From a virus, in IMG/VR virus record IMGVR_UViG_3300028837_000945, positions 1 through 31,899 of that record: 31,899 bases of DNA, one strand, 5' to 3'. How positions within the stretch are numbered: position 1 is the stretch's first letter; each line of letters begins with the position of its first letter. Both the position numbers and the translations under genes were made by a program. The notes below the pieces were generated by a model that worked only from the letters and a program-made list of their open reading frames with translations, was not told the DNA's origin and ran no database searches. Below, piece by piece: positions 1 to 7,828 of the stretch.

Positions 1-903
1 ACAGCAGCGGGCAGTCCTGACACGAGTGGTGTCGCGAAACTACTCTACCAGGACTATGTAACTGAGGTGGCGGTTGTGGCTGCTGGTTACAGGCAGGTTA
101 GGATGTTTGCCCAGAACGGCTCAGGAGTCTACGAGTGGTTCGAGCTACAGCCTACCACCAGCGAAGCATTCATCAAGCTGGGCGATGCGGCTGGGATACA
201 CAAGTTCAAGATCAAAGATTCCGTTGGTACTACACAATTCCATGTTAACTCAGACGGTGTAGTAGGCATCTACTACGCTGGCACCCAGGTAGGCGAAATC
301 AGTGCGTTGGACACAACCTGGTTCCGCTTCAACCAGGGGGTAGCCAAGAACATCTACACACCTCGTTACATCAGAGCGGATGGTGGTCTCGCTGCAGGGA
401 ATACTATGCCGGCGGCGGGCGAGCTGCGGACGACTTCTCATGTCTACGTGGGGGGTTCGATCATCACGAGCACGCCATTGGGCTGCCGCGCGATCAGCAC
501 CCAGTCACAGACGATACCGCATAACACAGCAACTGCTCTGTCTTTCAACACTCAGATTCATGATACAGATGGTGGCTTTGCACCCACCAGCACGGCGCTT
601 TATGCTAAGCATGCCGGTTATTACATGGCCGGCGGCGGGGTGGGTTTCAACGGTGTCGCGGCAGCGCGGCTGATGGTCTGTAGCGTCAGGCTCAATGGGG
701 CAACCTACGTGGGCAGCAGCGAACTGCTCGTTGACGAGAACGCTGCTATGACCCTGAACGTTTCGTCCGGGATGTTCTACATGGCAGTCAACCACTACAT
801 CGAGATTGTGGTGTATCAAAACAGCGGCGGAAACATGACCACGATAGCGGCCAGTACCACAAACCAACAGTGGGCTAATGCCTGGCTAGTGCGGGTGGCG
901 TAG
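1..903 (+). CDS. tail fibre protein, C-terminal part (5' end outside window)
   Basis: The frame is open from base 1 to the stop at 901-903, so this is the 3' part of a longer gene. An internal GTG at 67 has no convincing ribosome binding site and is unlikely to be the real start. The visible 300 residues begin with beta-rich fibre-like sequence (FHVNSDGVVGIYYAG). They end in about 140 residues resembling a C1q/TNF-like trimeric jelly roll: alternating hydrophobics, a GYYMAGGGVGF strand, SVRLNG, and a final aromatic strand. Such domains cap phage fibres and bind host surface receptors. The frame matches that of the gene leaving the right edge (30532-31899). If the genome is circular the two form one fibre of about 756 residues. 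Fibre assignment is likely; the receptor is unknown. Confidence 0.7.
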   Translation, partial: TAAGSPDTSGVAKLLYQDYVTEVAVVAAGYRQVRMFAQNGSGVYEWFELQPTTSEAFIKLGDAAGIHKFKIKDSVGTTQFHVNSDGVVGIYYAGTQVGEISALDTTWFRFNQGVAKNIYTPRYIRADGGLAAGNTMPAAGELRTTSHVYVGGSIITSTPLGCRAISTQSQTIPHNTATALSFNTQIHDTDGGFAPTSTALYAKHAGYYMAGGGVGFNGVAAARLMVCSVRLNGATYVGSSELLVDENAAMTLNVSSGMFYMAVNHYIEIVVYQNSGGNMTTIAASTTNQQWANAWLVRVA

Positions 904-3285: not shown

Positions 3286-3708
3286 CTAGTGCTTCTTGCA
3301 GGAGGCTTCCATCGCTATCGCAAACCTCTTTTGGGGATCGGTCTCTCCCCCAAAGATGTCGCCCTCCTCGCATGATAGCTCCTCGCGCAGGTCCAGGACC
3401 AGCGCGGCAAACTCAGAGACAAGGCCAAGTTCCCAGTCGCCCCCTGGTACATGATAGGCGAGCAGGTTGAAGGCTGGCTCCAAGAGCACCACAGTGGCCT
3501 GGCACACCTGGCCCTCCCGCGTCATTGGTAGGATCTCGATGCAGGTGACATGGCCCTGTGGCTGCCCACGGAGATACTCGGCCAGTTCCATTTGGAGCTT
3601 CCAGTAAGCCTCGTCCCAGACGGTGGGCTCCTCCTCGTCGATCACCAGGGGCTTGCCAAACACCTCTCGCAGGTCCTTCAGGTATCTTGCGTCAATCTCT
3701 ACTGTCAT
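3286..3708 (-). CDS. hypothetical protein with scaffold-like C-terminal tail
   Basis: 140 residues, starting at the ATG preceded by AGGAGGAGAACC. A longer frame reaching 3873 only reads through the 9-bp repeat array (YTx repeats) and is not the likely product. The body is acidic, with no recognised domain (DARYLKDLREVFGKPLVIDEEEP; later FAALVLDLREELSCEEGD). The last 22 residues follow FGGETDxxKRxAIAxxAS-x-K, which is also the C-terminus of the scaffold protein at 20667-21428. In other phages the scaffold C-terminus binds coat protein, so this protein may be drawn into the procapsid; that is inference. It lies in the replication block, immediately downstream of the iteron-like array. Confidence 0.75.
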   Translation of the reverse strand: MTVEIDARYLKDLREVFGKPLVIDEEEPTVWDEAYWKLQMELAEYLRGQPQGHVTCIEILPMTREGQVCQATVVLLEPAFNLLAYHVPGGDWELGLVSEFAALVLDLREELSCEEGDIFGGETDPQKRFAIAMEASCKKH

Positions 3709-3769: not shown

Positions 3770-3850
3770 GGTACACTGGGTACACCAGCTACACCGCAGT
3801 GTAGACCGGTGTACGTGGTGTACCCGGTGTACCTGGTGTACTTGGTGTAC
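3770..3850. repeat. array of nine contiguous 9-bp repeats (iteron-like)
   Basis: The array is exactly nine nonamers long with no spacing. Read on the minus strand, five are GTACACCNN in direct orientation (NN = AA, AG, GG, AC, GG), followed by TCTACACTG, then three in inverted orientation (CGGTGTAGC, TGGTGTACC, CAGTGTACC). It begins directly after the stop of the 141-residue gene and ends about 60 bases before the start of the 140-residue gene. The switch in orientation also allows a hairpin (CTACAC CGCA GTGTAG, 3789-3804). Iteron arrays beside replication genes are commonly origins or initiator operators; here that is inference from position and form. Confidence 0.9.
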
Positions 3851-4276
3851 CTATTTGCCTCCTCTAAGGCCAAATCTCTGACCTCCAGGGGAATCCCAAG
3901 AGATCAACAACCCCTTCCCTACTAGGTCTTGGCAGCGCTTGTAGGTATTCTTTGGATCACGGTCCACCCGTGCCAGTATCTGCGTGATAGCTGCGTGCCG
4001 TGGCTCGTTGTCGTCTGAGCCACGACTCTCGCCATGCCCGATGCTTACAGGCTCTGTATTAACAACAAACTCCCTCCGGTCGAAATAGTCGGAGGGCTCG
4101 CTGCCAAGGCAACGCACAAACTCGGCGAGACTCTCGCCAGGAACGACGATCCTGCGGCAATCTTTCATATCAGATAGTGAATACCATCCATCCATCTCTG
4201 CCCCACGCTGTTGAATGCTCAGCCCCCGGTCGTGGAATTCGATCATCCATGCTTCTCTGTACTTGTTCTCAGTCAT
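3851..4276 (-). CDS. small protein with winged-helix-like C-terminus (candidate initiator or regulator)
   Basis: 141 residues from the ATG at 4276, which has AGGAGG five bases upstream; a longer frame to 4369 lacks such a site. The N-terminal 80 residues are unrecognised (MTENKYREAWMIEFHDRGLS, then a charged segment). The C-terminal 45 residues (AAITQILARVDRDPKNTYKR followed by CQDLVGKGLLISW and a GGQRFGL wing) have the pattern of a winged helix-turn-helix. The gene sits between two clusters of related nonamers (3770-3850 and 4308-4419) and directly downstream of the primase-helicase. It is therefore a good candidate to bind those repeats as an initiator or autoregulator; this is inferred from position. 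Confidence 0.65.
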   Translation of the reverse strand: MTENKYREAWMIEFHDRGLSIQQRGAEMDGWYSLSDMKDCRRIVVPGESLAEFVRCLGSEPSDYFDRREFVVNTEPVSIGHGESRGSDDNEPRHAAITQILARVDRDPKNTYKRCQDLVGKGLLISWDSPGGQRFGLRGGK

Positions 4277-4307: not shown

Positions 4308-4419
4308 CCAGTGTAGGGTGTGTATAGTTTGACGGGTTTTCCAAGACTTTGCATGCAAATTTCCCTCATGTAGGACTTTTCAGAAAAACGCCTAAACTAT
4401 ACACACTATACACTACTGG
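4308..4419. repeat. long inverted repeat built of nonamers related to the iteron array
   Basis: The left arm (4308-4330) and right arm (4394-4419) are imperfect inverted copies with a 12-bp perfect core, TGTGTATAGTTT (4319-4330) and AAACTATACACA (4394-4405), separated by 63 bases. Each arm holds two adjacent nonamers: CTATACACA and CTATACACT at 4397-4414, and on the other strand CTATACACA and CCCTACACT at 4310-4327. These resemble the TCTACACTG/GTACACCNN units at 3770-3850. The right arm overlaps the primase stop codon. The spacer includes the 12-bp palindrome TTTGCATGCAAA (4348-4359). It is a probable binding region upstream of the 141-residue gene. Confidence 0.8.
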
Positions 4420-6922
4420 CCAACAGGCCGATGCCCTCGTAGACCTGTCCCCGGTTCGTGCGGGCCTTTGGAAACTGCTTGCCCAGTCGCAATCCAAAGG
4501 CAGTGATGCTCATGGGCTTGAGGCCGCCGTCTTTCATCCACTCTACATAGGCACGGTAGAGGTCCCGTGCTCCTACCCTGGCACCGTCGCCTATGTGACA
4601 GCAGTCGTCGAAAAACTGGGCCAGGGTGTTCTCGTCATTGCGGTACTCTTCTGTAGCAGCCGCCACACTGGCTGGCGGGCACAGGCCCATCGCTTGGTAG
4701 CTCAAGCATCCTTCTACTAACCAACGGAGGATACCAGGGGCCTCGGCTGCCAGCTTGGCGTCCAGGTCGTTGTCGCGTGGGTATTGCCTCTTACCTTGTG
4801 GCTTATCGACAAACTGTTGGGTGAAAGGCAGTAGCAGTATGCGCTCCCACAGCGCCCAATCCTCAGCATCAGCATGTGGCTTGTGGTTTGTCAGTAGTAT
4901 GATCAGGTGGCTTGGCATAAACGTGATGGGCTTGCCGTACAGAGGGCGTCCTGTTATCTCCCCACCGCCGGTAACGAACTTGACCAGCGCCTCGTTCATC
5001 CGGGCACCCTCTTTGGTCTCACTGGCCCAACCGATGCGCAGTCCCTGTAGTGCACACAGGTGCGGCGTTGCTCCTTCCGGGTTGCTATCCTTCGAGACCA
5101 GCGCCGCAGCATTGATAGGGCCGACGTATACACCCAGCGCGTTGCGCAGTGCTTTCAGCAAGGTGTCCTTGCCGTTGCTGCCACTGCCCCACAGCACCGG
5201 GAACTTGTGCTCATTTGACGTGCCCGTGATGCCGTAGCCCAGCAACCGCTGTACGAAGGCAATTAGTTCCTCGTCGCCAGCGAAGATCTCCTGCAGGAAC
5301 TGTTTCCAGCGTGGGGCTTCTGCGTTGGGCACCCATGGTGTTGGGGCATAAGTCCTGATAAAGTCCTCCGGTAGCCCATCCCTGAGACTGCCGTCTCTCA
5401 AGTTGAGCACCCCGTTGCCCACCCCGAGTAGCCAGGGGTCTTTGTCCCATACGTCACTGGTCAACGCCAGTTCGGGGATGGCGGTTGCCAGGCTGAGCAC
5501 GTTGCCAATGCGGTAGCGGGCGCGCAGGGACTTGGCCCTGTCGCTGAACTCTCTGGCGCGTGCGTGCTTGCCTTTATCGTTGTCATCGGTCTCCAGGATG
5601 TGGGCAGCGGCGTGATAGTACTGCGCAGCCAGGGGACCACTGACCAGGCGGCGCACGAAGAGCATCTTGTCCTCGACCCACCGGTGTTCATCCCAGCGAT
5701 ACCATAGCTGGGCGCTATGATCGTAGATCACCAGGCCGGTGAACATTGTGGCCAGTAGCTCTGCGTCTCCAGTCTCGCCACGTCCCAGGGCTTCTTCCAC
5801 GTCCTCGAAGCTGGCGCGAACGGCCCGCTCCGCTTCTGGCAAACGGGCGGGCACTATGTCCTTGGGCTGCGCCTCTTTCGGCCCACGGGGCTGGGCGAGC
5901 CCGGCCTCGATGCCGCTGCGGATTGTACGCGCGATGTCGGCTTCTGTGAAGCTGGCGTCGATGCCAAGTCCGTGTGCGCAGGCAGTCAGTGCGGCCTCCA
6001 CCCTGTGCCGGTCCAGATAGCCCCCACCTATGATTTGACCCAGGCTGAAGGCACTTGTGTTGAGCCGCACATTACGGTCAACGTGCTGCTGTGCACCAGA
6101 CAGATACACAAGCTCGTTGGCCAGTGCTGTCTCGGCCCACTTATCCCGGCCATTGGCCTTGCCGGTCTGCGGTTGGTTCTGGTTCTGCGCGCAGAACGTA
6201 GTAGGCTCCAGCGGGAGCAGGGCCTCCAGCTCGTCCAGGTCATAGAGCTGGCCCAGGTCGCAGCGGATGAGTGTTACCAGGGGGCGGTCAGGGTATTTGT
6301 AGTTGCGAGTGCCTGGCACCCTCAATACCCTGGCCAGGTCTTTGGTCCCCCCATCTCCTCCGGCGAAGGCAACCCAGCGGTACTGGATGCTTCGCGCTCG
6401 CTCGCGCTGTTCGTCTGTGCGAATGACGAACGGCTGGCGCAGGAGCCAATAGAGATGGTAGCCGTTTCCGCTATCGACAACCGCCGATGGTTGGGGACTG
6501 AGGCCATCTACGTGAGCCAGCGCGCCATCCTTCCCGTTGGAGAAGTCCTTGGCGTCGAGCTCAGCGAACAAGGCATTGACCGCACCGACGTCCTCGATCC
6601 TTGCGCGTTCAGCGATGCCCTTCTCTCTCCGGCTGGGGTGTACGCCGAAGTAGACGTTACCTGAAACGTCGGGAGTAGGGGCAGGGGCACTGGTAGGCCA
6701 CCACTGGCTGGTCTTGGTACTGCCGAACCAGTAGAGCCCCCATGCCCCCTGGCGCATCAAGTGTGACAAGAGCGTGGCCCACTCCTTCTCGCCTGTCTTG
6801 TCGTTTCCCGGCTTCCGTGGTATGCTACTACTATCGGGGAGGGAGGTGCGCCAAGTGTTCTTCTCTTCCTGGGCCGCCCCTGCGCTACCAGGGGTGGCCG
6901 CTTTTGTTACTACATTTGTCAT
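4406..6922 (-). CDS. AEP-type primase fused to SF3 (D5-like) helicase
   Basis: 838 residues; GGAG lies six bases before the ATG. The N-terminal part (about 45-235) resembles RepB/AEP primase-polymerase domains: FAELDAKDF (acidic residues 121-126), SGNGYHLYW (His156), and LARVLRVPGTRNYK (197-209). A linker of about 20 residues (240-260) contains FCAQN encoded by the 16-bp palindrome. The C-terminal half is a D5-type SF3 helicase with Walker A GSGSNGKDT (579-587, Lys585), IGWASET as the Walker B-like segment, ILLTNHKP as motif C, and a WALWERILLLPF arginine-containing element. A winged-helix-like tail ends the protein. It should prime and unwind phage DNA; no DNA polymerase is seen, so host polymerase is probably used. 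Confidence 0.92.
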   Translation of the reverse strand: MTNVVTKAATPGSAGAAQEEKNTWRTSLPDSSSIPRKPGNDKTGEKEWATLLSHLMRQGAWGLYWFGSTKTSQWWPTSAPAPTPDVSGNVYFGVHPSRREKGIAERARIEDVGAVNALFAELDAKDFSNGKDGALAHVDGLSPQPSAVVDSGNGYHLYWLLRQPFVIRTDEQRERARSIQYRWVAFAGGDGGTKDLARVLRVPGTRNYKYPDRPLVTLIRCDLGQLYDLDELEALLPLEPTTFCAQNQNQPQTGKANGRDKWAETALANELVYLSGAQQHVDRNVRLNTSAFSLGQIIGGGYLDRHRVEAALTACAHGLGIDASFTEADIARTIRSGIEAGLAQPRGPKEAQPKDIVPARLPEAERAVRASFEDVEEALGRGETGDAELLATMFTGLVIYDHSAQLWYRWDEHRWVEDKMLFVRRLVSGPLAAQYYHAAAHILETDDNDKGKHARAREFSDRAKSLRARYRIGNVLSLATAIPELALTSDVWDKDPWLLGVGNGVLNLRDGSLRDGLPEDFIRTYAPTPWVPNAEAPRWKQFLQEIFAGDEELIAFVQRLLGYGITGTSNEHKFPVLWGSGSNGKDTLLKALRNALGVYVGPINAAALVSKDSNPEGATPHLCALQGLRIGWASETKEGARMNEALVKFVTGGGEITGRPLYGKPITFMPSHLIILLTNHKPHADAEDWALWERILLLPFTQQFVDKPQGKRQYPRDNDLDAKLAAEAPGILRWLVEGCLSYQAMGLCPPASVAAATEEYRNDENTLAQFFDDCCHIGDGARVGARDLYRAYVEWMKDGGLKPMSITAFGLRLGKQFPKARTNRGQVYEGIGLLASSV
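6182..6197. repeat. 16-bp palindrome, exact copy inside primase gene
   Basis: GTTCTGCGCGCAGAAC. It falls in the linker between primase and helicase parts and is translated as FCAQN (about residues 243-247) before a QNQPQ-rich stretch, a place where inserted codons would be tolerated. Confidence 0.95.
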
Positions 6923-7054: not shown

Positions 7055-7410
7055 GCCTGTTCAACCTTTGCCTGTGTCGAGGAAGCCCGGTATGCGCGGT
7101 CGGTTTCTGCTTGCTGCTGCCAGCCAGCCAGGAAGGCCGCCGCGTCTTCAATGGAGCCAAGCTCCCAATAGGAGACCCCGTAGGCGTCCATCCCGCGACA
7201 GTGCAGCCGATACGCAAACTGGTGCTCCTTGCCCTCGCGATCTAGGGCCAGGGCAACGATTTCCACGACGACCGGGCAGTCGCCCAGCCGGTCAACCTCG
7301 AAGGTTGCCTTGTAACCAGTCTGCTTGCCGGCGAAGCGCCCGTCGAAGTCGAGCCCGGCTACCACCATCTTCTGCACAAAGTCCTTCTCGTCCTCAAAGC
7401 GATTGCTCAC
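7045..7410 (-). CDS. hypothetical protein
   Basis: 121 residues from a GTG start. GTGA overlaps the stop of the upstream winged-helix gene, and GGAGGGG lies in that gene's last codons, so translation is likely coupled. No family is recognised. The body reads as a compact alpha/beta domain with alternating strands (GYKATFEVDRLGDCPVVVEIVALALDREGKEHQFAYRLHC) followed by a helical C-terminus (IEDAAAFLAGWQQQAETDRAY). No signal peptide, membrane span or metal-binding motif is visible. Its position between a winged-helix protein and the primase-helicase suggests a replication accessory role such as a single-strand or helicase-loading factor; this rests on position only. Confidence 0.65.
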   Translation of the reverse strand: MSNRFEDEKDFVQKMVVAGLDFDGRFAGKQTGYKATFEVDRLGDCPVVVEIVALALDREGKEHQFAYRLHCRGMDAYGVSYWELGSIEDAAAFLAGWQQQAETDRAYRASSTQAKVEQAAG

Positions 7411-7745
7411 TGTTCCCCTCCGTCAGAATTTTGATCTTTCTGTTGGCCCTTGGGCCAGTCCGACAGCTCGTTCAGCGCGATCCAGCGCACGCCAGATTCC
7501 AGCGGATACTCTGCTTCCACGGCGAGGCCCTGCTTAATCAGCGATTTGAGAATGCGCCTCGTTGTGTTGGGGCTCCACCAACTCGCCAGCCCGGCCTGAA
7601 TCGCTGCGGCATTGTACAGCAACCACCGGCGGCCCTGGTGCTCGACGCCATAGTCGTGCAATGCCGCCGCTAGCCTGCCGTGCATGACGGCTTCGTTGAG
7701 ACCGGCCTGTTCTGCCATTTGACCATCGACCGTAAAGGTAGTCAT
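7407..7745 (-). CDS. winged-helix DNA-binding protein, probable replication factor
   Basis: 112 residues from the ATG at 7745, seven bases after AAGGAG. The ATG at 7751 is only one base from that site, and a longer frame to 7802 would overlap the promoter. The sequence GLNEAVMHGRLAAALHDYG, then WLLYNAAAIQAGLASWWSPNTTRRILKSLIKQGLAVEAEY, follows the winged-helix pattern common in small phage replication or DnaD-like proteins: a structured leader, a W-containing middle, a TTRRILKSLIKQGL recognition helix and a beta wing. It is the first gene behind the strong leftward promoter, so it is expressed first in the replication block. A role as early regulator is also possible. Confidence 0.72.
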   Translation of the reverse strand: MTTFTVDGQMAEQAGLNEAVMHGRLAAALHDYGVEHQGRRWLLYNAAAIQAGLASWWSPNTTRRILKSLIKQGLAVEAEYPLESGVRWIALNELSDWPKGQQKDQNSDGGEQ

Positions 7746-7800
7746 CTCCATTCTCCTTGTATGTCTGTTAAATCTGGGAGTCGTCCTCCAGTTTGGGACC

Positions 7801-7828
7801 ATTATACCATGGTTGCGGTGGGTGTCAA
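7801..7828 (-). promoter_or_regulatory. leftward sigma-70 promoter, perfect -35 and -10 hexamers
   Basis: On the minus strand TTGACA (7823-7828) is followed by a 16-base spacer and TATAAT (7801-7806). Both hexamers match consensus. Transcription would begin near 7794, giving a leader of about 50 bases before the winged-helix gene at 7745. Confidence 0.88.

Follow-up and report, generated by a model that had tools for sequence, protein, structure and literature searches.

A nine-unit GTGTA[C/G] array and a second inverted site beside a D5-type primase-helicase gene: a candidate iteron module of a phage replication origin

The window, the whole 31,899-nucleotide stretch of viral DNA analysed here, carries a D5-type primase-helicase gene followed on the same strand by two smaller genes, with one group of short repeats at the end of the primase-helicase gene (region B) and another at the end of the gene after it (array A). 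The features, in the order in which the minus strand is read, are as follows.

4406-6922, minus strand: D5-type primase-helicase of 838 aa, the proposed initiator, assigned from Pfam, PHROGs, a profile match and a structural model
4399-4413, minus strand: second inverted set of region B, two GTGTAT copies 9 bp apart
4326-4398, no strand: spacer of region B, ~60% AT against 40-50% around it (50-bp AT windows), the proposed melting site
4311-4325, plus strand: first inverted set of region B, GTGTAG at 4311 and GTGTAT at 4320, 9 bp apart
3851-4276, minus strand: orphan gene for a 141-aa protein between region B and array A, whose winged-helix-like C-terminus is a low-confidence guess
3798-3851, plus strand: six-unit GTGTA[C/G] set of array A, hexamers at 3799, 3809, 3818, 3827, 3836 and 3845
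3789-3804, no strand: CTACAC-CGCA-GTGTAG centre of array A, without an AT-rich spacer, the flanking sets pointing outward
3770-3795, minus strand: three-unit GTGTA[C/G] set of array A, hexamers at 3771-3776, 3780-3785 and 3789-3794
3286-3708, minus strand: gene for a 140-aa protein, family not assigned, of which array A could be the operator

Array A consists of nine GTGTA[C/G] sites between 3770 and 3851, three on the minus strand and six on the plus strand, with centre-to-centre steps of 9, 9, 10, 10, 9, 9, 9 and 9 bp. A sequence-only reading of the same DNA had placed nine units at 3770-3850 in perfect 9 x 9 phasing; the nine sites are there, but the steps are not all of 9 bp; within the sets, every step but one (10 bp) is of 9 bp. 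The reading was right about the division into six units facing one way and three the other, as the hexamer positions and strands confirm, about the CTACAC-CGCA-GTGTAG centre at the switch, and about the position directly after a stop codon, which is the TAG (3851-3853, minus strand) of the 141-codon gene. The array starts ~555 bp past the stop of the primase-helicase gene, one gene further on, and ends 62 bp upstream of the start of the same-strand gene 3286-3708. This arrangement greatly exceeds chance expectation. The 31,899-base record has eight pairs of GTGTA or TACAC at a distance of exactly 9 bp, six of them in array A and two in region B, against a mean of 0.02 and a maximum of 1 in 300 dinucleotide shuffles of the window, among which the longest GTGTA/TACAC cluster had three sites. 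Searching phages and plasmids with array A by blastn gave no match.

Region B (4311-4413) is a second site with the core and pitch of array A, 460 bp away from it. It spans the helicase stop (4406), which falls inside one of its iterons, GTGTATAG, and the 141-aa gene begins beyond it, at 4276. The 9-bp pairs of region B, GTGTA at 4311 and 4320 and TACAC at 4400 and 4409, form two inward-facing sets around ~73 bp that are AT-richer than their surroundings, and the region contains a 32-nt inverted repeat, 78% complementary, with a fold z of -4.1. Region B places its short repeats immediately behind the helicase gene, in two inverted sets that flank an AT-rich region. Set against the same PICI-type origin layout, array A alone has the inverted sets, but its centre is only CGCA and its sets face outward; its unit and pitch of 9-10 bp are also shorter than the 17-22 bp of classical iterons.

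The primase-helicase matches D5_N (2.5e-26) and Pox_D5 (7.6e-8) in Pfam, with weak matches to RepB-primase (N-terminal) and RFX, and phage DNA primase families in PHROGs. A profile built from five relatives matches PDB entry 7ola, 'DNA primase', at 1.1e-41; we take this entry to be SaPI5 Rep. A model of the last 98 residues, based on 27 relatives, is confident over approximately the last 75 and predicts a Pox_D5/RFX-like winged helix at residues ~763-825. No PDB entry matched this model at 0.001; the best was the RFX DNA-binding domain (E 0.0015), and the P4 origin-binding domain, 1ka8, ranked 15th (E 0.14). Domain matches, the 7ola profile and the predicted structure together indicate that the gene next to the repeats encodes a D5-type AAA+ helicase whose C-terminus is a winged helix.

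Other proteins of the window offer less as binders. The 141-residue protein, which the sequence-only reading had proposed together with another small protein as a binder of the array, has a poor model (pLDDT 41) and no relatives in viral contigs, phages, the PDB, two individual genomes or 298 genomes of the class of L217, a locus with a related helicase that is discussed below. That proposal finds no support, and the primase-helicase is the likelier binder. A 131-aa protein (7407-7802) has weak matches to IclR-type HTH (E 0.026) and phage replication-initiation (E 0.002) families, from which it is possibly another candidate binder of array A. Two genes for HNH-type endonucleases (2145-2780 and 22950-23822), the first with a NUMOD4 motif, are possibly mobile. 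Joining the ends of the record leaves a 769-codon frame open across the junction (window 1-903 plus the last 1407 bases), and the genome may therefore be complete and circularly permuted, though it is catalogued as a linear-type virus record. GC skew, which had been suggested as a check on the origin, tracks gene orientation and says nothing about an origin.

Short phased repeats directly 3' of the gene are common among relatives of the helicase. We assembled 173 loci, namely 160 best-match D5-type loci (the best 80 from viral contigs and the best 80 from genome contigs), 11 named phages, the D5 relative L002 and the window; the stop was found in 172, at least 400 bp followed it in 167, and 151 were non-redundant, the window included. 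Exact 8-mers repeated at distance 9 occur in the first 400 bp past the stop in 36 of these 151 sampled loci, compared with 2/151 inside the gene, 1/123 at +2 kb, 3/93 at -3 kb, and a mean of 0.8 (maximum 3) in shuffles of the 400-bp flanks. Enrichment is weaker at distances of 8, 10, 11 and 12 (18, 12, 13 and 15 loci), and distances of 7 and 13 give 4 and 2 loci against shuffle maxima of 3. For 7-mers, the distance-9 signal is highest in the first 500 bp past the stop (51/150 loci), with 27/151 in the 500 bp before the stop and 6-15 loci in each other 500-bp bin. The preferred iteron pitch of the sampled D5-type loci is 9 bp. Such phasing had been called unusual for array A by comparison with plasmid iterons of 17-22 bp; for this family it is not, and the plasmid repeats are the wrong yardstick. 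A common 9-bp pitch for the D5-type family appears in no title or abstract that we found in the open-access literature.

The sets also share a layout. With 21 loci from genomes of L217's class added (172 loci in total), we scored a 6-mer present in at least three copies, with at least one pair 8-12 bp apart, opposite-facing copies and a spacer of 25-150 bp. Inverted sets phased in this way lie within 400 bp of the stop in 95 of the 172 sampled D5-type loci. The corresponding counts are 8/123 at +2 kb and 10/171 within the gene itself, and 10 rounds of shuffling averaged 6.0 with a maximum of 12; by the same criterion, the layout is absent from the other 77 loci. With a minimum of five copies, 73/172 loci remain, the two controls giving 3/123 and 0/171 and the shuffles 0.8 on average. 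Spacers in the 95 loci have a median length of 68 bp and a mean AT content of 64.5%, compared with 47.5% for the loci themselves, and are AT-richer than their own locus in 89. They are enriched in TATATA, AGAGAA, ATAGGG and CCTATA, which may mark an element for melting or priming that these origins have in common. On the gene strand, G outnumbers C in the first set of 49 of the 84 loci with at least four copies, C outnumbers G in 19, and the two are balanced in 16. Region B fits this family layout; array A, with its 4-bp centre and opposite facing, does not. Second arrays are found at only three of 81 other D5-type loci, and are weak there; in L002, Tandem Repeats Finder detected no clear long array.

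Iterons and enzyme vary together. Across 76 loci, iteron similarity has a correlation of 0.26 with identity of the helicase core and of 0.185 with that of the winged helix, each at 0/1000 permutations. Given the core, the contribution of the winged helix is small (0.076; 45/1000 permutations), and it loses significance (169/1000) where core identity is below 50%. The iterons are tied to the enzyme, but the test does not single out its C-terminal winged-helix domain. Assigning that domain as the binder rests instead on homology and on the binding by the C-terminal domain of Cch2 described in the relevant part of PMC7581432.

Individual relatives illustrate the same organization. In L217, a locus from an Anaerolineae assembly, the helicase is 39% identical over 436 aligned positions to that of the phage, and its C-terminal stretch, at 48%, heads the 27 relatives aligned there. 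On the 3' side of the L217 gene, GTGTATAGTGTGTATAG is followed by an AT-rich stretch and CTATACACACTATACAC, and these two sequences hold nearly the iterons of region B. Among 298 genomes from L217's class, 36 have a helicase match, the best segments reaching 49% identity, which suggests, without proving, an Anaerolineae host. Scanning for the 18-mer GTGTATAGTGTGTATAGT returned 23 viral stretches: in one (L302) a D5-type gene is strongly matched and iteron sets lie ~410 bp 3' of it, another (L313) has a weak match, and 21 have none within the stretch examined. In Bordetella phage BPP-1 (L348, 2608-2711), 9-bp-phased TTTGCCTCG nonamers form two inverted pairs with ~73 nt between them, ~460 bp 3' of the primase-helicase gene bbp29.

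The sequence-only reading had proposed searching for the array in related phages. No A-like array is present within the sequence examined of L217 or L302. Some inner iterons of region B and L217, AGTGTAGG and GGTGTAGG, are similar to array A's units, as are the GGTGTAG iterons of another D5 locus (L183). Intergenic 9-bp-phased GGTACAC units very like array A lie at 7090-7200 of contig L095, which has no D5-type match in the 8960 bases examined. A scan with GTGTACNNNGTGTACNNNGTGTAC returned at least 119 stretches; among the matches listed, 63 are collagen-like coding repeats, 31 lie in an open frame and 25 in no frame. The reversed-hexamer scan gave 57 in all (2 collagen-like, 38 in an open frame, 17 in no frame). 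Given these counts, we regard GTGTAC triplets elsewhere as weak evidence and set them aside; the triplet pattern occurs in one of the 298 genomes of L217's class. From 56 non-collagen-like loci among the matches listed, 45 GTGTAC-array records were chosen by eye, 11 being dropped as apparent coding repeats; D5_N is present in 1/45, DUF927 in 5/45 and DUF5906 in 6/45, and several of these genes sit kilobases from the array.

On balance, we favor a model in which array A is an iteron cluster of a D5-type primase-helicase origin module and region B is the core origin. The proposal of a candidate origin at array A then stands in part: the 3' iterons of the D5-type family argue for an iteron-type replication role for this neighborhood, but the canonical site is region B. 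The primase-helicase would be self-loading, working like SaPI5 Rep or P4 alpha, with its C-terminal winged helix binding 5-6-bp cores at ~9-bp pitch. The inverted iteron sets of region B would position two hexamers, and the spacer between them would be melted and then primed. Because array A faces outward and has no AT-rich spacer, it is probably regulatory. Despite its larger number of sites, it would more likely bind surplus initiator, for copy control, handcuffing or as a loading reservoir, than undergo melting; it may also have a filament-type role. The core and pitch that it has in common with region B, and its position ~555 bp past the helicase stop, favor its being a further array of the same initiator, such that one protein would bind both sites. 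Against this stand the lack of a melting spacer, the rarity of second arrays (3/81) and the behavior of a matrix built from the sites of region B, L217 and L302, in which array A's sites rank 8, 110, 314 and lower among 63,774 positions and which consequently does not demonstrate a shared binder. Weighing both sides, we prefer a regulatory or reservoir role for array A, with an operator as the chief rival.

In that rival, which we consider unlikely but serious, array A is an operator: the 141-residue protein, or some other small regulator, would bind its tandem near-palindromic GGTGTACC units cooperatively, controlling gene 3286-3708 together with those that follow. Region B, possibly an origin in its own right, might in that case resemble array A in core sequence by chance. 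Tandem short operators occur for other repressors, MetJ- or omega-like small repressors being the type; apart from weak HTH matches no such family is present among 20 scanned proteins (10 with Pfam and PHROGs, 10 with PHROGs only), and the 141-aa orphan is a possible cognate repressor. The location of array A between a stop codon and the next same-strand start, 62 bp downstream, the near-palindromic unit and the failure of the B-type matrix to single out array A all suit an operator. However, we looked for a consensus promoter near array A and found none, and the replication-side proteins scanned with Pfam and PHROGs include no recognized regulator family beyond those weak HTH matches. The exact 9-bp pitch and GTGTA core common to array A and region B also argue against two unconnected sites.

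In a second alternative, replication would start mainly at array A, and region B would have an accessory or regulatory part. Nine strongly non-random sites against four would fit such a role, but array A has no AT-rich spacer, both the layout of region B and its place immediately behind the gene are typical of the family, and region B is the site in common with L217; we judge this arrangement quite improbable. Least probable by our estimate, and very much so, is the reading of array A as a structured RNA or transcription terminator that closes the 141-aa gene: the array, a 35-nt inverted repeat with 86% complementarity, lies directly after the stop codon, folds far better than shuffles (RNA z -5.9, DNA z -5.2) and includes a terminator-like match at 3786-3770, but the tail of that match is TGTTTTACAG rather than a long T run, the region holds about as many such matches as chance predicts (3 against 2.8), an Rfam scan gave only sub-threshold microRNA matches, and inverted sets of binding sites would form hairpins anyway, as those of region B do.

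If array A belongs to the module centered on region B, an odd repeat becomes a testable origin assignment for this phage, whose closest helicase relatives, among the matches listed, are in genomes of the Anaerolineae, a poorly studied host group. More broadly, that D5-type genes commonly have inverted, 8-12-bp-phased (mostly 9-bp) iteron sets with an AT-rich spacer directly 3' provides a rule for finding origins. We tentatively extend this to a joint proposal, somewhat less secure than the origin module itself, in which the 9-bp register is general for D5/SaPI5-Rep-type initiators, with approximately one winged-helix domain per 9 bp, and the phage has a bipartite origin in which array A controls the core. 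Were the register general, the origins of such phages and prophages could be read from sequence.

Several known systems stand close to that of the phage. Classical iteron plasmids resemble it in having repeated initiator sites near an AT-rich stretch, but their unit and pitch are much longer, and no plasmid Rep initiator family was found in the ten Pfam-scanned proteins, bar the weak RepB primase match in the helicase. In P4, iterons occur in more than one place (the origin and crr). P4 alpha is a fused primase-helicase whose C-terminal winged helix binds repeats, according to the P4 passages of PMC4234260; like the phage helicase it is a winged-helix primase-helicase, and its origin-binding domain is a weak structural match, but it has a Toprim-type primase, whereas the phage enzyme has D5_N and a RepB-like N-terminal match. 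The pRN1 ORF904 and BIP-1 systems also pair a winged-helix primase-helicase with an inverted repeat 3' of its gene, the element being needed for pRN1 and proposed, as a stem-loop origin, for BIP-1; the corresponding passages of PMC4234260 present stem-loops without iterons, and for BIP-1, where the stem-loop lies 3' of the bbp29 gene, without the nonamers seen in BPP-1. The inverted repeats of the phage are made of 9-bp-phased iterons, as are the two inverted pairs of BPP-1, and BIP-1's proposed stem-loop origin may likewise be readable as iterons. A likeness is also seen to SaPI/PICI Rep and Cch2, in which a related D5-type helicase again has short repeats directly 3' of its gene. In the part of PMC7581432 that describes it, the D5_N-type helicase Cch2 binds, through its C-terminal domain, three 5-nt iterons (AAGTG in SCCmec) within 23 bp downstream of its gene, which if evenly spaced would, by our calculation, give a 9-bp pitch. 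The inverted layout of the D5-type loci is the one published for PICI/SaPI origins, where two iteron sets flank an AT-rich region (origin description in PMC6092414). Unlike these systems, the present one belongs to a tailed phage, probably of an Anaerolineae host; its iteron core is GTGTA, and beyond the next gene it carries an extra, nine-unit, outward-facing array.
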